Source: a virus
Length of the DNA stretch: 26,740 bases
Reading direction: 5' to 3' (one strand)
Virus record (IMG/VR): IMGVR_UViG_3300037264_003811
Span: 1 to 26,740 of that record
The translations under genes and the position numbers were made by a program. Numbering within the stretch: position 1 is the stretch's first letter; each line of letters opens with the position of its first letter. This document shows positions 1-9,601 of the stretch, one piece after another. Under the pieces are notes generated by a model, which saw only the letters and a list, made by a program, of their open reading frames with translations, was not told the DNA's origin and searched no databases.

Positions 1-1540
1 AGTTATTCTCAATAGCGATACTGTTAGAATTATATGTTATATTTCCATTATTAGAGTTACTCGCTATGTCTCCACCATTTAAGTTGTTTGATATTGCCCC
101 TCCATTATCATTGTTAACAATTCCTCCGGCATTAGAGTTATACGTAATATTAGTCACATTGCCTAAATTACCTGAAATATTGCCGTTGTTTGAGTTGCTT
201 ACTATCTGCCCGGTGTTGACGTTACTGGTGACATTCCCGCTATTGCTATTTCCGAATATAACAGTAACAGTAGTACCGTTTGCTACAATATTTCCAACAT
301 TAGAGTTGTTCTGTATAACTCCGATATTAATGTTGTCCGAAATATCATCTGTGTTGGAGTTTCTGCTGATCTCTTGTACTGGGTCAAGATTACCGCTTAT
401 ATCTCCGTTGTTGTTGTTTAGTAAGATATCCCCAAGATTAGTATTGTTAACAATTCCTCCGGCATTACTATTCTGTAATATTTCTCCTGTATTTGAGTTC
501 TCATTGATAACTCCTAAATTATCATTAGACTCAATATCCCCCGCATTTGAGTTCTCTTCAATGTTTCCTTTATTTGAATTACCTTCAATATTCCCATTGT
601 TGGAATTAGCAGATATGCTCCCAATATTACTATTCCCAGAAATCCCTCCGACGGAGAGAGTATTGTTAGATATACTCCCGATATTTGTATTACTGTGTAT
701 AGTTCCCTCTACAACATTATTATATATTCTACCCGGAATTATGTTGTCCCTAATCACCGCTCCTCCAACAGTATTGTTAGAAACCCCATAACAAACATTA
801 CCCAAAAATCCGTCAATAGAAATTATAGTTCCATAATTCCAATCAGAAATGTCTACAAGATTAGAAAGGCCGCCAAAATTATCTACGTGATAGGAAAAAT
901 TCACTCCAAAGACATTCCCCTTGCCGTCCCACTGCCGCTCAATCCAGCCATTTTCAAAGTCAAATGAAACACCAAATGTCATCTCTACATACTCTCCGTT
1001 ACTAAACGCTGCCTTAGAAACTAAATCCCACTCTCCATCTAATCCGGCATCATTATTAGGTGTTCCTACATTCCCATTAAGGTTTATCCACACTTGTCCG
1101 CCCCATATTGCTAAATCTCCAACGGCGGGAGTAAGCCCTGCATACCATACCCCAAGCCACACATTACCGTCTGAGATATCAGCAGTTCCATAGTAGGTAG
1201 GAACCAACATGAGTCTTGTGCCTTCTCTTGTGAAAGAGTTGGTATCTAATCCTCTAAGGAATACACCAAGATCACCTATTTCTGTGATTTTATACTCTTG
1301 GCCGGGAACTACTGTGTCTCCAGCTACTAAAGCCTGAGCTTCAGCATAGGTGAGTTCTTCTATACATGGACAACCACCCTCACTGCCGAATACTTCCCAA
1401 CTATCTCCATCCCAGTAATAAAATATCCCTGTATCTGGATTAAAAAGTACAACAGGGTCTCCTGCTCCAGGTGCATCAACAGGGGGAGATAGAGTAGTTA
1501 GCTCAAATTCACAGCAACAGCAATCTCTTTTATGTCCCAT
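1..1540 (-). CDS. Partial giant repeat fibre/adhesin, N-terminal 513 residues
   Basis: An open frame runs without a stop from the ATG at 1540 to the left edge, so the C-terminus is missing. The first residues are MGHKRDCCCC, a tag shared with the next gene upstream. Residues 35-50 (around LFNPDTGIFYYWDGDSW) and a stretch with GQEYKITEIGDLG resemble modules common in phage fibre N-termini. Trp- and Gly-rich beta segments follow to about residue 250. About 26 nonapeptide repeats (N-x-N-x-G-x-I-x-x) then reach the window edge. I infer an elongated virion appendage, such as a fibre or adhesin, whose repeats stack into a solenoid. The gene lies two bases after its tagged neighbour and has no Shine-Dalgarno site. 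The fibre role rests on composition, repeats and context; no receptor domain is visible. Confidence 0.85.
   Translation of the reverse strand, partial: MGHKRDCCCCEFELTTLSPPVDAPGAGDPVVLFNPDTGIFYYWDGDSWEVFGSEGGCPCIEELTYAEAQALVAGDTVVPGQEYKITEIGDLGVFLRGLDTNSFTREGTRLMLVPTYYGTADISDGNVWLGVWYAGLTPAVGDLAIWGGQVWINLNGNVGTPNNDAGLDGEWDLVSKAAFSNGEYVEMTFGVSFDFENGWIERQWDGKGNVFGVNFSYHVDNFGGLSNLVDISDWNYGTIISIDGFLGNVCYGVSNNTVGGAVIRDNIIPGRIYNNVVEGTIHSNTNIGSISNNTLSVGGISGNSNIGSISANSNNGNIEGNSNKGNIEENSNAGDIESNDNLGVINENSNTGEILQNSNAGGIVNNTNLGDILLNNNNGDISGNLDPVQEISRNSNTDDISDNINIGVIQNNSNVGNIVANGTTVTVIFGNSNSGNVTSNVNTGQIVSNSNNGNISGNLGNVTNITYNSNAGGIVNNDNGGAISNNLNGGDIASNSNNGNITYNSNSIAIENN
2..721 (-). repeat. Tandem nonapeptide-coding repeat, about 26 units
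   Basis: On the minus strand the frame encodes about 26 consecutive units of 9 residues, five of them 10. The consensus is N-[S/x]-N-x-G-x-I-x-x, for example NSNNGNIEG, NSNKGNIEE and NSNAGDIES. The 27-base period is preserved at protein level but the DNA copies have diverged, so this is an old coding repeat rather than a recent DNA expansion. The 10-residue units (such as NLDPVQEISR and NLGNVTNITY) lack the central Gly; units 13, 17 and 21 fall four apart. The regular Asn, Gly and Ile positions suggest a beta-solenoid or beta-roll. The array continues past base 1. Confidence 0.9.
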
Positions 1541-1542
1541 GA

Positions 1543-1914
1543 TTAAGGGTAGACTTTAATTGTTATATACGCCAGCCCACTAAAATCAACCGGGCTGCCA
1601 GCATTATCAAAAAAGTCTATTGCTATTCTATCAGAATCCAGCCAATATGCCACACAGCTGTAAGCGACCCCCCCTTGACCCAATGTTAGAAAAAATAGAA
1701 CTTTATATTGAGATGGAAATTGACCCGTAAGATTTCCAATATAGGCACCAAGTGATCCATATTCCCACACAAAACTCCCACTAAAATTATTTCTCAACTC
1801 TGTAGCAACTGGAGGAGATGCCGTGCCATCTTGTGTTAATATGGCCTCATAGATAAGAGGTTCATTTCCAGAAACTACCCCATCACAACAACAACAGTCT
1901 TTTTTATGTCCCAT
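1543..1914 (-). CDS. Small virion/fibre-associated beta protein with MGHKKDCCCC tag
   Basis: The 123-residue product starts at the ATG at 1914; a longer version would need a GTG at 1941. The ATG is preferred because MGHKKDCCCC then matches the N-terminus of the following gene. After the tag comes a beta-rich domain (YEAILTQDGTASPP, a central VWEYGSLGAYIGN, ending ITIKVYP). This pattern of an ILTQ-x-GT opening, a W-x-Y-x(3)-G-x-Y core and an IKVYP end recurs in small appendage proteins of Bacteroidota phages, but I know no named family. The start overlaps the upstream dioxygenase gene by 11 bases, so the two are probably translationally coupled. A virion location is inferred from context. Confidence 0.75.
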   Translation of the reverse strand: MGHKKDCCCCDGVVSGNEPLIYEAILTQDGTASPPVATELRNNFSGSFVWEYGSLGAYIGNLTGQFPSQYKVLFFLTLGQGGVAYSCVAYWLDSDRIAIDFFDNAGSPVDFSGLAYITIKVYP

Positions 1915-2518
1915 TTTGAAAATACCTATAAATTCGTTCACTCATTCTAATCAGAGGGTCATCTTTAGTTCTACCTATTTTCTCATAAGGAACACCAAAA
2001 CCAAAACTTAACAACACTCTGCGAGAATTAAAAGGTAATGCCCAGTGTTTGTACAAAGAGGCTTCAAACGTATATAAGTCTCCCTCTTCTATATCCCACA
2101 CTTCCTCCCCTACAAACAATTTATAGGATTCTGAAATAACTGGAGTATTGGCTTTTACATTTATATATCCGGGGTAAGCTGTATCGTAGTGTGGCTTAAT
2201 TTCCCCTCCAGTGGATTGATCTATGATTTGTAGGAATATGTTTTCTTTGAATCCTGTTAAATCACTAATCCTCTGAAGTATGTCAAATACCGATGATGGA
2301 AGTTCTTCAGTTCTTAAATTCCCATCACTTTGAAAAGTAGACAGGTAAGTTGAAACCTCCGTCTTAGAGATATCCCACATATGGGCAACTCCCTTTAATC
2401 CTTCTGCTACAGTCTTAATGTGTATATTTTCGACAGTGGAACCCTTTAGACCACTAATAAATTCAAGAATCTTACCTCTTTCTTCGGGGGTTATTGTTTT
2501 ACAAGCCTTAATCCCCAT
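1904..2518 (-). CDS. Fe(II)/2-oxoglutarate-dependent dioxygenase, protein-hydroxylase-like
   Basis: The 204-residue protein has the 2OG-Fe(II) oxygenase signature: an HxD pair (H110, D112, in KPHYD), a distal His (H158, in YKHW) and an Arg (R166 or R167, in NSRRVLLSFGF) suited to binding the 2OG carboxylate. Around these lie the expected double-stranded beta-helix strands, and WDIEEGDLYTF sits where the family has its G-D turn before the distal His. The layout is closer to prolyl or Asp/Asn hydroxylases than to AlkB. The N-terminal 90 residues look helical and are unassigned. The gene overlaps both neighbours and sits directly before two tagged appendage proteins, so hydroxylation of a virion protein is a reasonable inference. 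No substrate can be read from the sequence. Confidence 0.8.
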   Translation of the reverse strand: MGIKACKTITPEERGKILEFISGLKGSTVENIHIKTVAEGLKGVAHMWDISKTEVSTYLSTFQSDGNLRTEELPSSVFDILQRISDLTGFKENIFLQIIDQSTGGEIKPHYDTAYPGYINVKANTPVISESYKLFVGEEVWDIEEGDLYTFEASLYKHWALPFNSRRVLLSFGFGVPYEKIGRTKDDPLIRMSERIYRYFQNGT

Positions 2519-5023: not shown

Positions 5024-5527
5024 TTAGGAATTTAATTTAGAATCTCTGAAAACTATAGAATATCTAAGATTGGGAACTGGTAAGATTGCATGTTTCCAAT
5101 CCCACCTAGATTCTCCTGAAAGTTGAAGAAGACTTTTACTTGGAATTAAAATGTTTGTTTTATCTGGGGTTTTGGTTAAAACCATGTTTGCATCTGATAA
5201 AAGAGAAACTATAGAAATAATAGGTCCACTTTGTTCATTATCTATATGGGCAGATATAGAATCCCCTTTTTGATATTCATTAATTGTAATGTGATCTGGT
5301 CTAGATTTTAGGTATTTATGTTCCACTAATCTATCTAAGAGAAAATTCAAGTATTCCGGTAAATTAGCTGATACAACTTTATTTCCATAGACCTTAGCTC
5401 CGTATCTCCAAATTGAACTTCTACCGGATTTACGTGACTTTTTAGGAGAAACTGGAAGTTTGGAAACTATAAGCTCTTCTTCCTCCCGTGTTATAAAATC
5501 TTCAACAAATTTAAGTCCAGATACCAC
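5024..5527 (-). CDS. AlkB-like Fe(II)/2-oxoglutarate dioxygenase
   Basis: The 167-residue protein carries the AlkB pattern in order: NEYQKGDSISAHIDNE with Fe ligands H94 and D96, an SGESRWDWKH segment with distal H146, and RYSIVFR with R155 and R161, matching the RxNxxFR-type element of AlkB. The N-terminal GLKFVEDFIT resembles the nucleotide-recognition region of the family. At 167 residues it is shorter than E. coli AlkB (216). Family members oxidatively demethylate alkylated bases in DNA or RNA, and some relatives act on proteins. The start is GTG, 12 bases after the upstream stop; the first internal ATG would remove the HxD. It lies between two large virion genes, an odd place for a repair enzyme, so a role on virion proteins or packaged DNA is possible. 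Confidence 0.85.
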   Translation of the reverse strand: MVSGLKFVEDFITREEEELIVSKLPVSPKKSRKSGRSSIWRYGAKVYGNKVVSANLPEYLNFLLDRLVEHKYLKSRPDHITINEYQKGDSISAHIDNEQSGPIISIVSLLSDANMVLTKTPDKTNILIPSKSLLQLSGESRWDWKHAILPVPNLRYSIVFRDSKLNS

Positions 5528-5538
5528 TACATAAAGTG

Positions 5539-7128
5539 TTAAATAATAATAATTGGTTCTTGTGTTATAACAACATTGAAATTAATATGCGTAGTTGGCC
5601 CTTCTCCAATATGAGAACCCCCCTGTGTAATTCTGAAAAAATATCCACGATCCTCATCAGCAATAGGTGCAATAAGTCGTCTCCAACCTATGTACTCTCC
5701 CGCAAAAGTTTCGTATTCTGTATTGTACTCATCTTGGAGTGACAAATAACCAGCTGCAAGTCCTGGTACAAAGGCAGCTGCACTATATGTCCACAATGGT
5801 GTTCCCCCAGATTCATTATGTGTAATTACCTCAATGTTGAAACCAGTATCTGAAAACCCAGCATATCCATCAATTGTAAATTTGGTTAAATGCGAGTTCA
5901 CCATGGATTCATAAAATGCAAATCCAGCATTAAAATCTACTGCATATGATGTGTGATCAACTGTAGGAGCTAACGTAATTTCTACCTGCCCCACCCATCG
6001 TCTTGCAGTCTGATAATATTCATTAGTTGCAATAGTTGTAACATCTGCTACAATAACCTCTGTATCTGCTGGAGTCCTAACTCCATCATCATCAACAGAT
6101 GTTCCAGATATTGTAATATCTGCTGTTCCTGTACCACCAGATGCCGTACCTGCAGCTGCTGCAACAATAAACACATGTGCTCCATACGCCCCATTTGTTG
6201 TACCAATTGTAGTATCATCATCCCCTTGGTTCAGATTATAATCTGTTGCCGCTGCTTGATAATATCCTCCTGCATAAAACTGCCCTGCAAGTCCCTGTCC
6301 CAAATGACTATATGACCGTTCAACTATCTTTGCTGCTTGTTCAATGGGGTCAATCCAGTTCCCATCTTGATTTAGAAACAGGTCAGGAGAAGCCCCCTCC
6401 CCACCAATTCCAAGACAATCATCTACTTCTGCACAAAGTTCTACTTCTATAACTTCAGAACCAGCAGTAACCCCCAATAGATATGGAGGATTACTTTGAA
6501 TTAATGCACCGGCACCATAACCTGATAGTCGTACTTGTCCTGTTGCACCATTGATAAAGAAATTCTCAAAAAGTGTTGTACCAAGTCCACTTGGCAAATA
6601 TATTGCATAAGTACCTATAGGATCTGTTGCTGTAACATCGGACAATACCACATCCAGATTACATGCTGCTACTGGTGTACCAGCACTACCATCAACAAAA
6701 TATTCTGCTCTTACACCTATTCCGGCAGCAGGAGCAGCAGAGGATTCCCTTTGAACACGTAATGCGGGAAGTACAGTGTTAGTAGAAGCAGCAGTAACAG
6801 CACCCGTTATAGCGACTCCACCTCCAGCATTGTTGTGACTTGTAAATGTAGAAGAAGCATCCGTTCCAACAAGAGTAAATGCACTTACATTATTAATTGT
6901 AGTATCAAAACTTGCTTGATTATGGGTTCTGTTTGCATTTTGAACAAGATTGTCCTCGAAGAAGTTAGTATCAGTTGCTGCTGTAGATGTTATATCTATA
7001 GTACCTGCAACACTTGCATCAAGTGCAACAGTTCCATCTGAAGATGTAAGCTCTACAACATCATTATAGGTTACTTCAAAGTCATTGACTCCATCAGAGA
7101 GAGTAAATTTTTGAATAAGATGTGACAT
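5539..7128 (-). CDS. Probable virion fibre or appendage protein, beta-rich
   Basis: The 529-residue protein is rich in Thr, Ala, Gly, Asp and Asn with few Lys, typical of trimeric phage fibres. The N-terminal region (1-60) has short strands (KFTLSDGVNDFEVTYNDVV) that may be the anchor. The middle (60-260) looks like repeated beta turns, and the C-terminal 230 residues form a likely beta-sandwich with WVGQVEITLAP and IDGYAGFSDTGFNIEV. A short helical EQAAKIVERSYSHL near residue 270 could be a hinge. It shares one base with the upstream peptidase stop (TAATG), so translation is probably coupled. Receptor binding is inferred; no named domain is recognised. Confidence 0.7.
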   Translation of the reverse strand: MSHLIQKFTLSDGVNDFEVTYNDVVELTSSDGTVALDASVAGTIDITSTAATDTNFFEDNLVQNANRTHNQASFDTTINNVSAFTLVGTDASSTFTSHNNAGGGVAITGAVTAASTNTVLPALRVQRESSAAPAAGIGVRAEYFVDGSAGTPVAACNLDVVLSDVTATDPIGTYAIYLPSGLGTTLFENFFINGATGQVRLSGYGAGALIQSNPPYLLGVTAGSEVIEVELCAEVDDCLGIGGEGASPDLFLNQDGNWIDPIEQAAKIVERSYSHLGQGLAGQFYAGGYYQAAATDYNLNQGDDDTTIGTTNGAYGAHVFIVAAAAGTASGGTGTADITISGTSVDDDGVRTPADTEVIVADVTTIATNEYYQTARRWVGQVEITLAPTVDHTSYAVDFNAGFAFYESMVNSHLTKFTIDGYAGFSDTGFNIEVITHNESGGTPLWTYSAAAFVPGLAAGYLSLQDEYNTEYETFAGEYIGWRRLIAPIADEDRGYFFRITQGGSHIGEGPTTHINFNVVITQEPIIII

Positions 7129-7835
7129 TAAATTCTAGTATAAACGGTTACATTATTAATCTTAGAAGCTCTGTAGGTATTTTTCTTTTTATTATCTTCT
7201 GGATTTAGTGAGTATGCTACATGTATCCAGTTTGGGACATTAATTCCAAATTCCCAAATTAAGACATAATACTCTAAATTGTTCTTTATGTGGTTAAATA
7301 ACTCAAGGTTAGTAGGTCCATTTGGAGATCCATCTTGGTCTATATCTATTGCACAAATATTACCAAGGACCATATGATGACTTGTTGGAGATCCACCAAC
7401 TTTTGTATTAAGTTCTTTAGATCTAAAAAATGACGATATATGTATTGGTTTATTAAAATAAGATCTAAGAGGATCAAAGAACTTAGTTCCAGCATTCCTC
7501 ATTATTGATAATTGTCTATCATCAGGAATGTTAGAAACATTGTGAGAGGTTCTTACTGATTCAATATAGCTGATGTACTTGGATATACGATAAGGTCTTT
7601 TTGGTTTATCATTTCCAGTACTTCCTGAGGACTGATTCCCTTCAAAATTGCGCAGTCCTCCAAGGTTGGGTATAGAATCTGTTCCCCACTTAGAGTAGTT
7701 TCCAAAATGGGAGAATTGTATAAAAGCATATTCTCTTCCATATTGTAACTCTCTGGAGTAGGAACTTCCTGATGTAGAGAACGTCCAAAGGAGGACAATA
7801 ATACTACTAAGAACACGACCGATCCTATAATCCAT
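7128..7835 (-). CDS. M15-type zinc peptidase (peptidoglycan hydrolase), signal-bearing
   Basis: The M15 domain occupies about residues 82-210 of 235. It has RISKYISYIESVRTS at its start, FDPLRSYFNKPIHISSFFRS, VGGSPTSHHM, AIDID and NWIHVAY. Likely zinc ligands are H153 or H154, D164 and H205. The spacing from the first His to Asp is longer than the usual HxxGxAxD, by about three residues. M15 enzymes cut D-Ala-containing or L-Ala-D-Glu peptide bonds in peptidoglycan, so this is either the endolysin or a virion-borne wall hydrolase. In this frame the N-terminus (VLSSIIVLLW) is signal-like, followed by a poorly structured linker. A second open frame overlaps the first 94 codons, and the two may really be one gene (see next entry). 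Confidence 0.75.
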   Translation of the reverse strand: MDYRIGRVLSSIIVLLWTFSTSGSSYSRELQYGREYAFIQFSHFGNYSKWGTDSIPNLGGLRNFEGNQSSGSTGNDKPKRPYRISKYISYIESVRTSHNVSNIPDDRQLSIMRNAGTKFFDPLRSYFNKPIHISSFFRSKELNTKVGGSPTSHHMVLGNICAIDIDQDGSPNGPTNLELFNHIKNNLEYYVLIWEFGINVPNWIHVAYSLNPEDNKKKNTYRASKINNVTVYTRI

Positions 7836-8643: not shown

Positions 8644-9102
8644 TTAATCTACTCCAGCGTTAATAATTGGGGGAATTTCCTCACATACACCTGTTTCAGG
8701 ATTACAGAATTCTCCTTCAGGACAGACAACAAAAATGCAAAGGTTTTGAACACATACTAATACCCTACCAACAGAAGAAAAGATAGTATCGGGACAGATA
8801 ATTTTAAATCTAATCTCTGGAAAAGTCCCAGGTATAGCCTCAGGAGTAAAAGTAAAGGATATAACCCCAGAAGCATTTATTGTTACACTAGAGAAGGAGT
8901 CATCAAATCCAACAATCTGATAGAGAACAGGATCTGCACAAGTGCCAACTTCTCCTAACTCAGAAACATCAATTATCCCAGCACCACCTGGAGGGACTGA
9001 GTCTTCACAAGCTACTACTGCACTCCCCGCCCTTAGACAGGATGGACAAGCTGGAGCTGGAGGAGGAATGGAGACACCACTTAGTATGCAGTTACAAGCC
9101 AT
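8644..9102 (-). CDS. Small Cys-rich beta protein with MAC-x-CI tag
   Basis: The 152-residue protein begins MACNCI, almost the same as the MACSCI start of the gene just upstream. A Pro/Cys-rich segment (PPPAPACPSC) follows, then an Ig-like beta region (about 35-115, with VTINASGVISFTFTP) and a Cys-rich end (VCPEGEFCNPETGVCEE) resembling a small disulphide knot. No signal peptide is present, so it is probably assembled in the cytoplasm into the virion. Its ATG overlaps the upstream gene by 11 bases, which suggests coupled translation and related stoichiometry. Function unknown; virion component by context. Confidence 0.68.
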   Translation of the reverse strand: MACNCILSGVSIPPPAPACPSCLRAGSAVVACEDSVPPGGAGIIDVSELGEVGTCADPVLYQIVGFDDSFSSVTINASGVISFTFTPEAIPGTFPEIRFKIICPDTIFSSVGRVLVCVQNLCIFVVCPEGEFCNPETGVCEEIPPIINAGVD

Positions 9103-9601
9103 CGCAGTTACAGTTTAGAAGTTGAAACTCCTTTTGAAGTTTTTGAAAGAACTCTGTTGCTAGTTCTTCTTTTTTGAGCTCTGAGTTAATATGAACAGAC
9201 TTAAGATAAAAGGAAAGTCTCTGAATAATCTCAAAGTCTATGTCTGTCTTGGCCCTAGATAAGAGGTTAAGGATACAACACTCTGAGTTAGGAGTATATG
9301 CCTTAGATTTAGAATAGATCTTACCACAGTTCTCTAGTGTAAAACAGTAGATTCCATCCATGAACGTTAGGTTGGCACCTAATCCTAGAGTGGTTGAATC
9401 TATTCTATTTTTACCTGAAGCATTAACCTCTACAGTATAGATGGCTCCAACTGGGGTCTTGATATCTAGAGAATAGGTAGTAGGAAATACATAGTCCTCC
9501 CCGGTTGCCCAAACTGAGGCATCTTCATATATAAGAGCCTCATTGGTTATTGAGGAGAGATGAAAGTTGAAGTATCCTTTGACTATACATGAACAAGCCA
9601 T
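9092..9601 (-). CDS. Virion-associated protein with MAC-x-CI tag, beta then helical
   Basis: The 169-residue protein opens with MACSCIVKG. Residues about 10-100 are beta-rich (YSLDIKTPVGAIYTVEV, FMDGIYCFTLENCG). Residues about 108-160 are a charged helical region (IDFEIIQRLSFYLKSVHI, then KKEELATEFFQKLQKEF), ending in CNCDGL. The beta-plus-helix design with Cys at both ends suggests an oligomeric structural part such as a neck, fibre base or whisker, but no family is recognised. It starts 11 bases after a tiny membrane-protein gene and overlaps the next tagged gene. Confidence 0.68.
   Translation of the reverse strand: MACSCIVKGYFNFHLSSITNEALIYEDASVWATGEDYVFPTTYSLDIKTPVGAIYTVEVNASGKNRIDSTTLGLGANLTFMDGIYCFTLENCGKIYSKSKAYTPNSECCILNLLSRAKTDIDFEIIQRLSFYLKSVHINSELKKEELATEFFQKLQKEFQLLNCNCDGL

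Follow-up and report, generated by a model that had tools for sequence, protein, structure and literature searches.

A nonapeptide array of predicted beta-helical fold in a probable receptor-binding fibre protein of a crAss-like phage

Results and Discussion

Gene setting of P0001

The window, as the whole stretch of DNA analysed here is called, is a 26.7-kb virus record. Its terminase, portal and capsid proteins have matches among PHROGs annotated accordingly (6681, 6547 and 11589), and the terminase shares 36% identity over 96% with its counterpart from Cellulophaga phage phi14:2 (Crassvirales). With a crAss-type terminase, portal and major capsid protein the record displays the features expected of Crassvirales, and judged by sequence the contig is a fragment of a crAss-like phage. 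At the far end of the structural block lies the gene for the fibre protein P0001 (positions 2–1540, minus strand), of which 513 residues are encoded. The contig ends before the reading frame does, leaving the 3′ end open and the C-terminus cut, as the preliminary description had noted. Both the structural block of the window and the tail genes surrounding its relatives place P0001 in a tail or structural gene setting of tailed phages.

P0001 starts with the Cys-rich tag MGHKRDCCCCEFE (1502–1540, minus strand), a candidate docking peptide. The protein encoded by the adjacent gene (1543–1914, minus strand) opens with nearly the same ten residues (MGHKKDCCCC) as P0001 (MGHKRDCCCC), with 82% identity over 11 residues in blastp and 88% over 32 nt at the DNA level. 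In the related locus L013, the corresponding gene and its neighbour have another N-terminal tag in common (E 9e-6). The fibres of phi-crAss001 dock via their first 26–58 residues (PMC10172136), and by comparison such shared tags would fit proteins that are docked at equivalent sites, which makes the adjacent gene product a possible second particle-docked protein. Elsewhere in the structural block, two adjacent proteins (8644–9102 and 9092–9601, minus strand) start with MACNCI.. and MACSCI.., possibly another shared Cys-containing N-terminal tag.

Three further genes were noted in passing. A Peptidase M15 domain (E 2.6e-9) is encoded at 7128–7835 (minus strand), probably belonging to a lysis or tail-associated cell-wall enzyme. 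The product of 5024–5527 (minus strand) matches the 2OG-Fe(II) oxygenase family PF13532 (E 2.9e-13), and that of 1904–2518 (minus strand) resembles a 2OG oxygenase by eye, with no Pfam hit. Both lie close to the Asn-rich array described below, with structural genes around them; the idea that they act as its Asn-hydroxylating partners was dropped because the oxygenase genes have no match in the loci of the relatives.

Sequence of the nonapeptide array

The last 258 residues of P0001 (residues 256–513; window positions 775–2, minus strand) consist of about 28 tandem units with the consensus N-S-N-x-G-x-I-x-x. An array of N-x-N-x-G-x-I-x-x units had been described between positions 2 and 721 with about 26 or more repeats; explicit segmentation upholds the array and moves its boundary and its unit number to the present values. 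Autocorrelation of the C-terminal 273 residues gives z-scores of 11.7, 10.0 and 6.8 at lags of 9, 18 and 27 residues. The motif N.N.G.[IV] occurs 19 times in P0001, whereas 5000 shuffles of unchanged composition contain it 0.55 times on average and never more than 5 times, confirming that the nonapeptide repeat is real. At the four fixed sites, units of the P0001 array use different codons in 51% of all same-residue comparisons. The mean DNA identity between units amounts to 54%, and Tandem Repeats Finder detects just two copies in the underlying DNA. Codon diversity and low DNA identity of the units therefore point to selection at the protein level rather than to DNA slippage. On the opposite strand, a frame of 262 codons stays open across the array (3–791, plus strand), probably as a side effect of the codons used in the array.

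Across the family of related arrays introduced below, 277 nine-residue units show the fixed sites Asn1 in 100% (a figure favoured by the segmentation score), Asn3 in 86%, Gly5 in 82% and Ile7 in 97%. Position 2 is Ser in 63% of these units, and outward positions are far more variable than inward ones. The number of units per array ranges from 8 to 51.

Predicted structure of the array

AlphaFold2 models were obtained for the module of the window and for the related protein L008. In the former, with a mean pLDDT of 63.9, the array reaches 70–81 for about its first 12 units and much lower values thereafter, so that the second half of the array as well as parts of the preceding neck are of low pLDDT; in the latter, with a mean pLDDT of 68.6, the array reaches 70–84 over about 13 units. 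In both models the array forms a regular solenoid, each unit of which carries short strands at positions 2–3 and 7–8, resulting in four two-residue strands per 18 residues.

Structural comparison with VIA-align retrieved gp150 of phage phi92 for the window model (Z 19.2, rmsd 2.8 over 278 residues), and AlgE6 (Z 17.5) and the Dettilon tailspike (Z 17.3) for the L008 model; the rmsd of the best match of either model (Z 19.2 and 17.5) lies at 2.8–3.0, and the absence of a family from the VIA-align listing does not exclude that family. Foldseek searches of the PDB gave weak E-values throughout for both models. The array is thus predicted, at moderate model confidence, to form a right-handed parallel beta-helix as found in phage tailspikes. 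The two models and the fold comparison back the earlier proposal of an Asn-ladder, Ile-core solenoid serving as a rigid part of a fibre.

A probable turn of two units

That two repeats make up one turn had been suggested by analogy to RTX nonapeptides, and the parity of the units lends support to a turn of 18 residues. The clearest case is L054, in which the NxN motif is present in 15 of 18 units of one parity and in 0 of 18 units of the other, and the similarity between units alternates from one lag to the next (p 0.0005). Even-lag similarity is individually significant in L054, L006 and L014 only. Pooled over the family, irregular units are found at even spacings with a frequency of 0.585 versus 0.485 in shuffles (p 0.0003); this signal rests largely on L006, L054 and L013, the p-value rising to 0.01 without L006 and L054 and to 0.10 when L013 is removed too.

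An 18-residue turn would also explain the ten-residue units that had been recognised at the outset. In the array of the window, explicit segmentation places them at ordinals 1, 5, 15, 19 and 23, all of which are odd, and they may represent bulges that arise on one side of the turn only. The higher-order period of four proposed alongside them held only in part: a spacing of exactly four is confined to parts of the window array, whereas even spacing persists across the family. The pattern is therefore explained better by irregular units placed at even-numbered intervals along a putative two-unit turn.

Neck domain and cap

Between tag and array, residues 57–255 (776–1372, minus strand) form a conserved neck domain of about 195 residues in the family, which aligns with the related loci in tblastn at E-values from 1e-39 to 1e-9 (alignments A1 and A2). 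It contains invariant Trp, Tyr and Asp residues and, in most members, the motif D-[IV]-[ST]-D-W close to its end. Within the neck, residues 127–174 (1019–1162, minus strand) resemble carbohydrate-binding modules of the CBM5/12 type. Foldseek matches the window model to Serratia ChiB with a probability of 0.92 and an rmsd of 2.0 over 46 columns at an E-value of 1.6, and this fold match was assigned to the neck because both Pfam CBM_5_12 and chitinase A1 match the same segment in relatives. When ten isolated family segments were scanned, CBM_5_12 matched three (best E 2.8e-4), the segment of the window itself giving no match, and in full-length scans the curated Pfam score was not reached (L028, 16.9 versus a cut-off of 26.2). 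The CBM5/12-like assignment hence rests on the fold of a divergent segment, for which carbohydrate binding would be the expected function. All3316, a weak match of the neck, is a membrane-anchor protein of a CIS and was not accepted as a functional parallel.

The array is followed in most members by a cap with the sequence NNxNNGxIxG...[IV]xDTIVNK. The C-terminus of L015 differs from this common cap, and L054 stops without it.

Relatives and the transferable cassette

A scan of IMG/VR for three consecutive units retrieved 13 further contigs, all of which carry true arrays, and looser scans added L028, L030 and L054. At least fifteen uncultured phage contigs thus carry the cassette, L006 and L011 being an identical protein on two contigs. 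In every member whose contig extends far enough the neck is followed by the array, usually with the same cap behind it. When 20 regions of the window were used as queries, the neck alone matched the contigs of the relatives. Since these contigs are mostly fragments, the neck-only match shows dissimilar surroundings rather than the complete absence of other window genes; neck and array therefore behave as a transferable cassette, spread among otherwise dissimilar contigs.

The sequences preceding the cassette differ. Cys-rich tags are found in the window protein and in L013, and a collagen-like GPAGPAG stretch in L016, while L006, L009, L014 and others display YadA-head-like GDNN repeats together with a tail protein of about 900 residues; in L054 a similar tail protein is encoded separately, directly upstream of the array gene. 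Among the relatives a large tail protein is accordingly fused to the cassette or encoded alongside it, with a tape-measure-like gene as neighbour. Two loci show peculiarities of their own. In L054 (10712–13563) the array gene stops, and an out-of-frame reading frame 6 bases on resumes array-like sequence followed by GTSGTSG repeats, reflecting either a frameshift or an assembly error. The 141-kb source contig of L013 also yields a crAss-type terminase match, which is split by about 336 residues within an open frame of 1123 residues (L058/L059; 131026–134037, minus strand), possibly by an intein.

The three-unit pattern has no match in 84,980 bacterial and archaeal genomes, and the single match of a two-unit pattern in the same genomes was attributed to chance. 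In IMG/VR the two-unit scan returned mostly one unrelated protein of about 150 residues, and L055–L057, obtained with a neck motif, proved to be unrelated proteins. No match to P0001 was found by tblastn among 50,697 phage records with the low-complexity filter on, nor to the tail proteins of L054 and L009 by tblastn against phages, and neither P0001 nor the terminase of the window yielded anything in searches for related loci. The family was not enlarged by additional searches with the neck, in which one weak phage match lay mostly N-terminal to it.

Proposed function and alternative explanations

Taken together, P0001 is probably a fibre of a crAss-like phage, acting as a non-enzymatic receptor-binding tip with a length-variable beta-helix. 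Four other explanations were weighed against this reading. The fold matches fall in a broad class with many enzymes, and the best of them include depolymerase tailspikes, alginate lyases and epimerases, as would be expected if the array were a pectate-lyase-like catalytic beta-helix digesting host capsule or exopolysaccharide. However, a fold in common does not show function, and the near-uniform nonapeptides are devoid of the long loops typical of catalytic beta-helices. Because no position is conserved as Asp, Glu, His or Arg among the 277 nine-residue family units, a depolymerase is distinctly improbable. An inert spacer, which only sets distance while the CBM-like neck or another protein binds, would agree with the high regularity and variable length (8–51 units) of the array and with the location of the CBM-like segment in the neck. 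Yet the array lies C-terminal to the neck, i.e. distal in the usual orientation, where it would not hold the neck off the particle, and its outward positions vary far more than the inward ones, making a mere spacer rather unlikely.

The remaining two explanations concern the Asn-rich character of the array. A low-complexity, disordered tail devoid of fixed structure is suggested by the Asn-rich, AT-rich sequence and by the low pLDDT that the window model shows over the distal half of the array, but is very improbable in view of the diversified codons at fixed sites, the single consensus common to otherwise dissimilar phages, the fixed coupling of the array to neck and cap, and the helix predicted at pLDDT 70–84 over 12–13 units. 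The antifreeze protein of ryegrass is an Asn-ladder beta-roll, and the Asn ladder of the array in combination with the Ser-rich outward position 2 could indicate an ice- or surface-binding solenoid working in the same way. Here the phage tail/fibre gene setting, the variation of the outward positions 4, 6 and 8 and the lack of a conserved flat face of the TxT type stand against it, so that this function is extremely unlikely.

For P0001 as a receptor-binding fibre, docking, oligomeric state, glycan binding and a role in adsorption are inferences. The short Cys-rich N-terminus would dock the protein to the particle, and the neck with its CBM5/12-like, putatively binding segment would come next. 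It would lead into a long right-handed parallel beta-helix, each 18-residue turn of which is built from two nonapeptides; judged by their spacing, Asn1, Asn3 and Ile7 may stack as inward ladders, with positions 2, 4, 6 and 8 facing outward. In the relatives, the conserved cap (..NNxNNGxIxG..DTIVNK) would close the rod. The beta-helix most likely extends outward from the particle and, together with the neck, would offer a repetitive surface for host surface glycans. By exchanging the cassette and varying the number of units, phages might tune reach and avidity. More tentatively, the array may constitute a distinct subclass of beta-helices, in which two near-identical nonapeptides make up an 18-residue turn, both half-turns bear Asn ladders and the core is mainly Ile; crAss-like and other tailed phages would employ it as an adhesive rod that can be transferred and adjusted in length.

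A probable receptor-binding cassette that occurs in otherwise dissimilar tailed-phage contigs, and is missing from the curated protein-family libraries searched, would aid the recognition of host-recognition genes in uncultured phages. The regular repeat with fixed Asn, Asn, Gly and Ile, in combination with its variable length, provides a simple natural test of fibre length versus adsorption, and the array is also a candidate scaffold for designed rods.

Comparison with known systems

The array shows no convincing match to Pfam, NCBIfam or PDB sequences, and a literature search for the nonapeptide repeat found nothing specific. The nearest profile is PHROG 4433, of unknown function and with no structure attached; 9 of 13 members match it with their arrays (best E 5.6e-6), and the match covers the repeat region rather than the neck. 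The best viral model match in BFVD, the uncharacterised A0A6J7WGB5 of an uncultured Caudovirales phage (E 1.1e-9, 24% identity), is likely a member of the nonapeptide-array family.

Other solenoids differ from the array in period and consensus and were excluded on these grounds. As the preliminary description had pointed out, the RTX beta-roll likewise has a nine-residue repeat with two repeats per turn; this likeness in length stands, but the GGxGxDxUx pattern with its calcium-binding Asp (HemolysinCabind) is absent, there is no Pfam match, and the folds retrieved are right-handed beta-helices of the pectate-lyase and tailspike type. In contrast to the pentapeptide repeat PF00805 (A(D/N)LxX), the array has a period of nine with negative z-scores at lags 5 and 10, and in contrast to the hexapeptide left-handed beta-helix ([LIV]-G-x4) it gives z-scores of −1.3 at lag 6 and 0.1 at lag 12, so that the signal at lag 18 belongs to the nonapeptide; neither family has a Pfam match in the array.

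The neck segment of about 48 residues is alike in fold, and weakly in sequence, to the CBM5/12 chitin-binding modules of Serratia ChiB and chitinase A1, and the head and tail fibre proteins gp21, gp22 and gp29 of crAss001 likewise belong to a crAss-like virion and carry short N-terminal anchors (PMC10172136). The predicted fold of the array is like that of the tailspikes of phi92 (gp150), Pam1, Sf6, HK620, P22 and Dettilon (VIA-align Z 15–19), which share with P0001 the phage tail/fibre gene setting. However, these tailspikes display longer, irregular turns with loops, often harbor catalytic residues and are only about 10% identical to the array, whereas the latter would be composed of short 18-residue turns of two near-identical nonapeptides. 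In conclusion, the beta-helical phage adhesin is a known principle, and its nonapeptide variant and the accompanying cassette are unnamed in the libraries searched.
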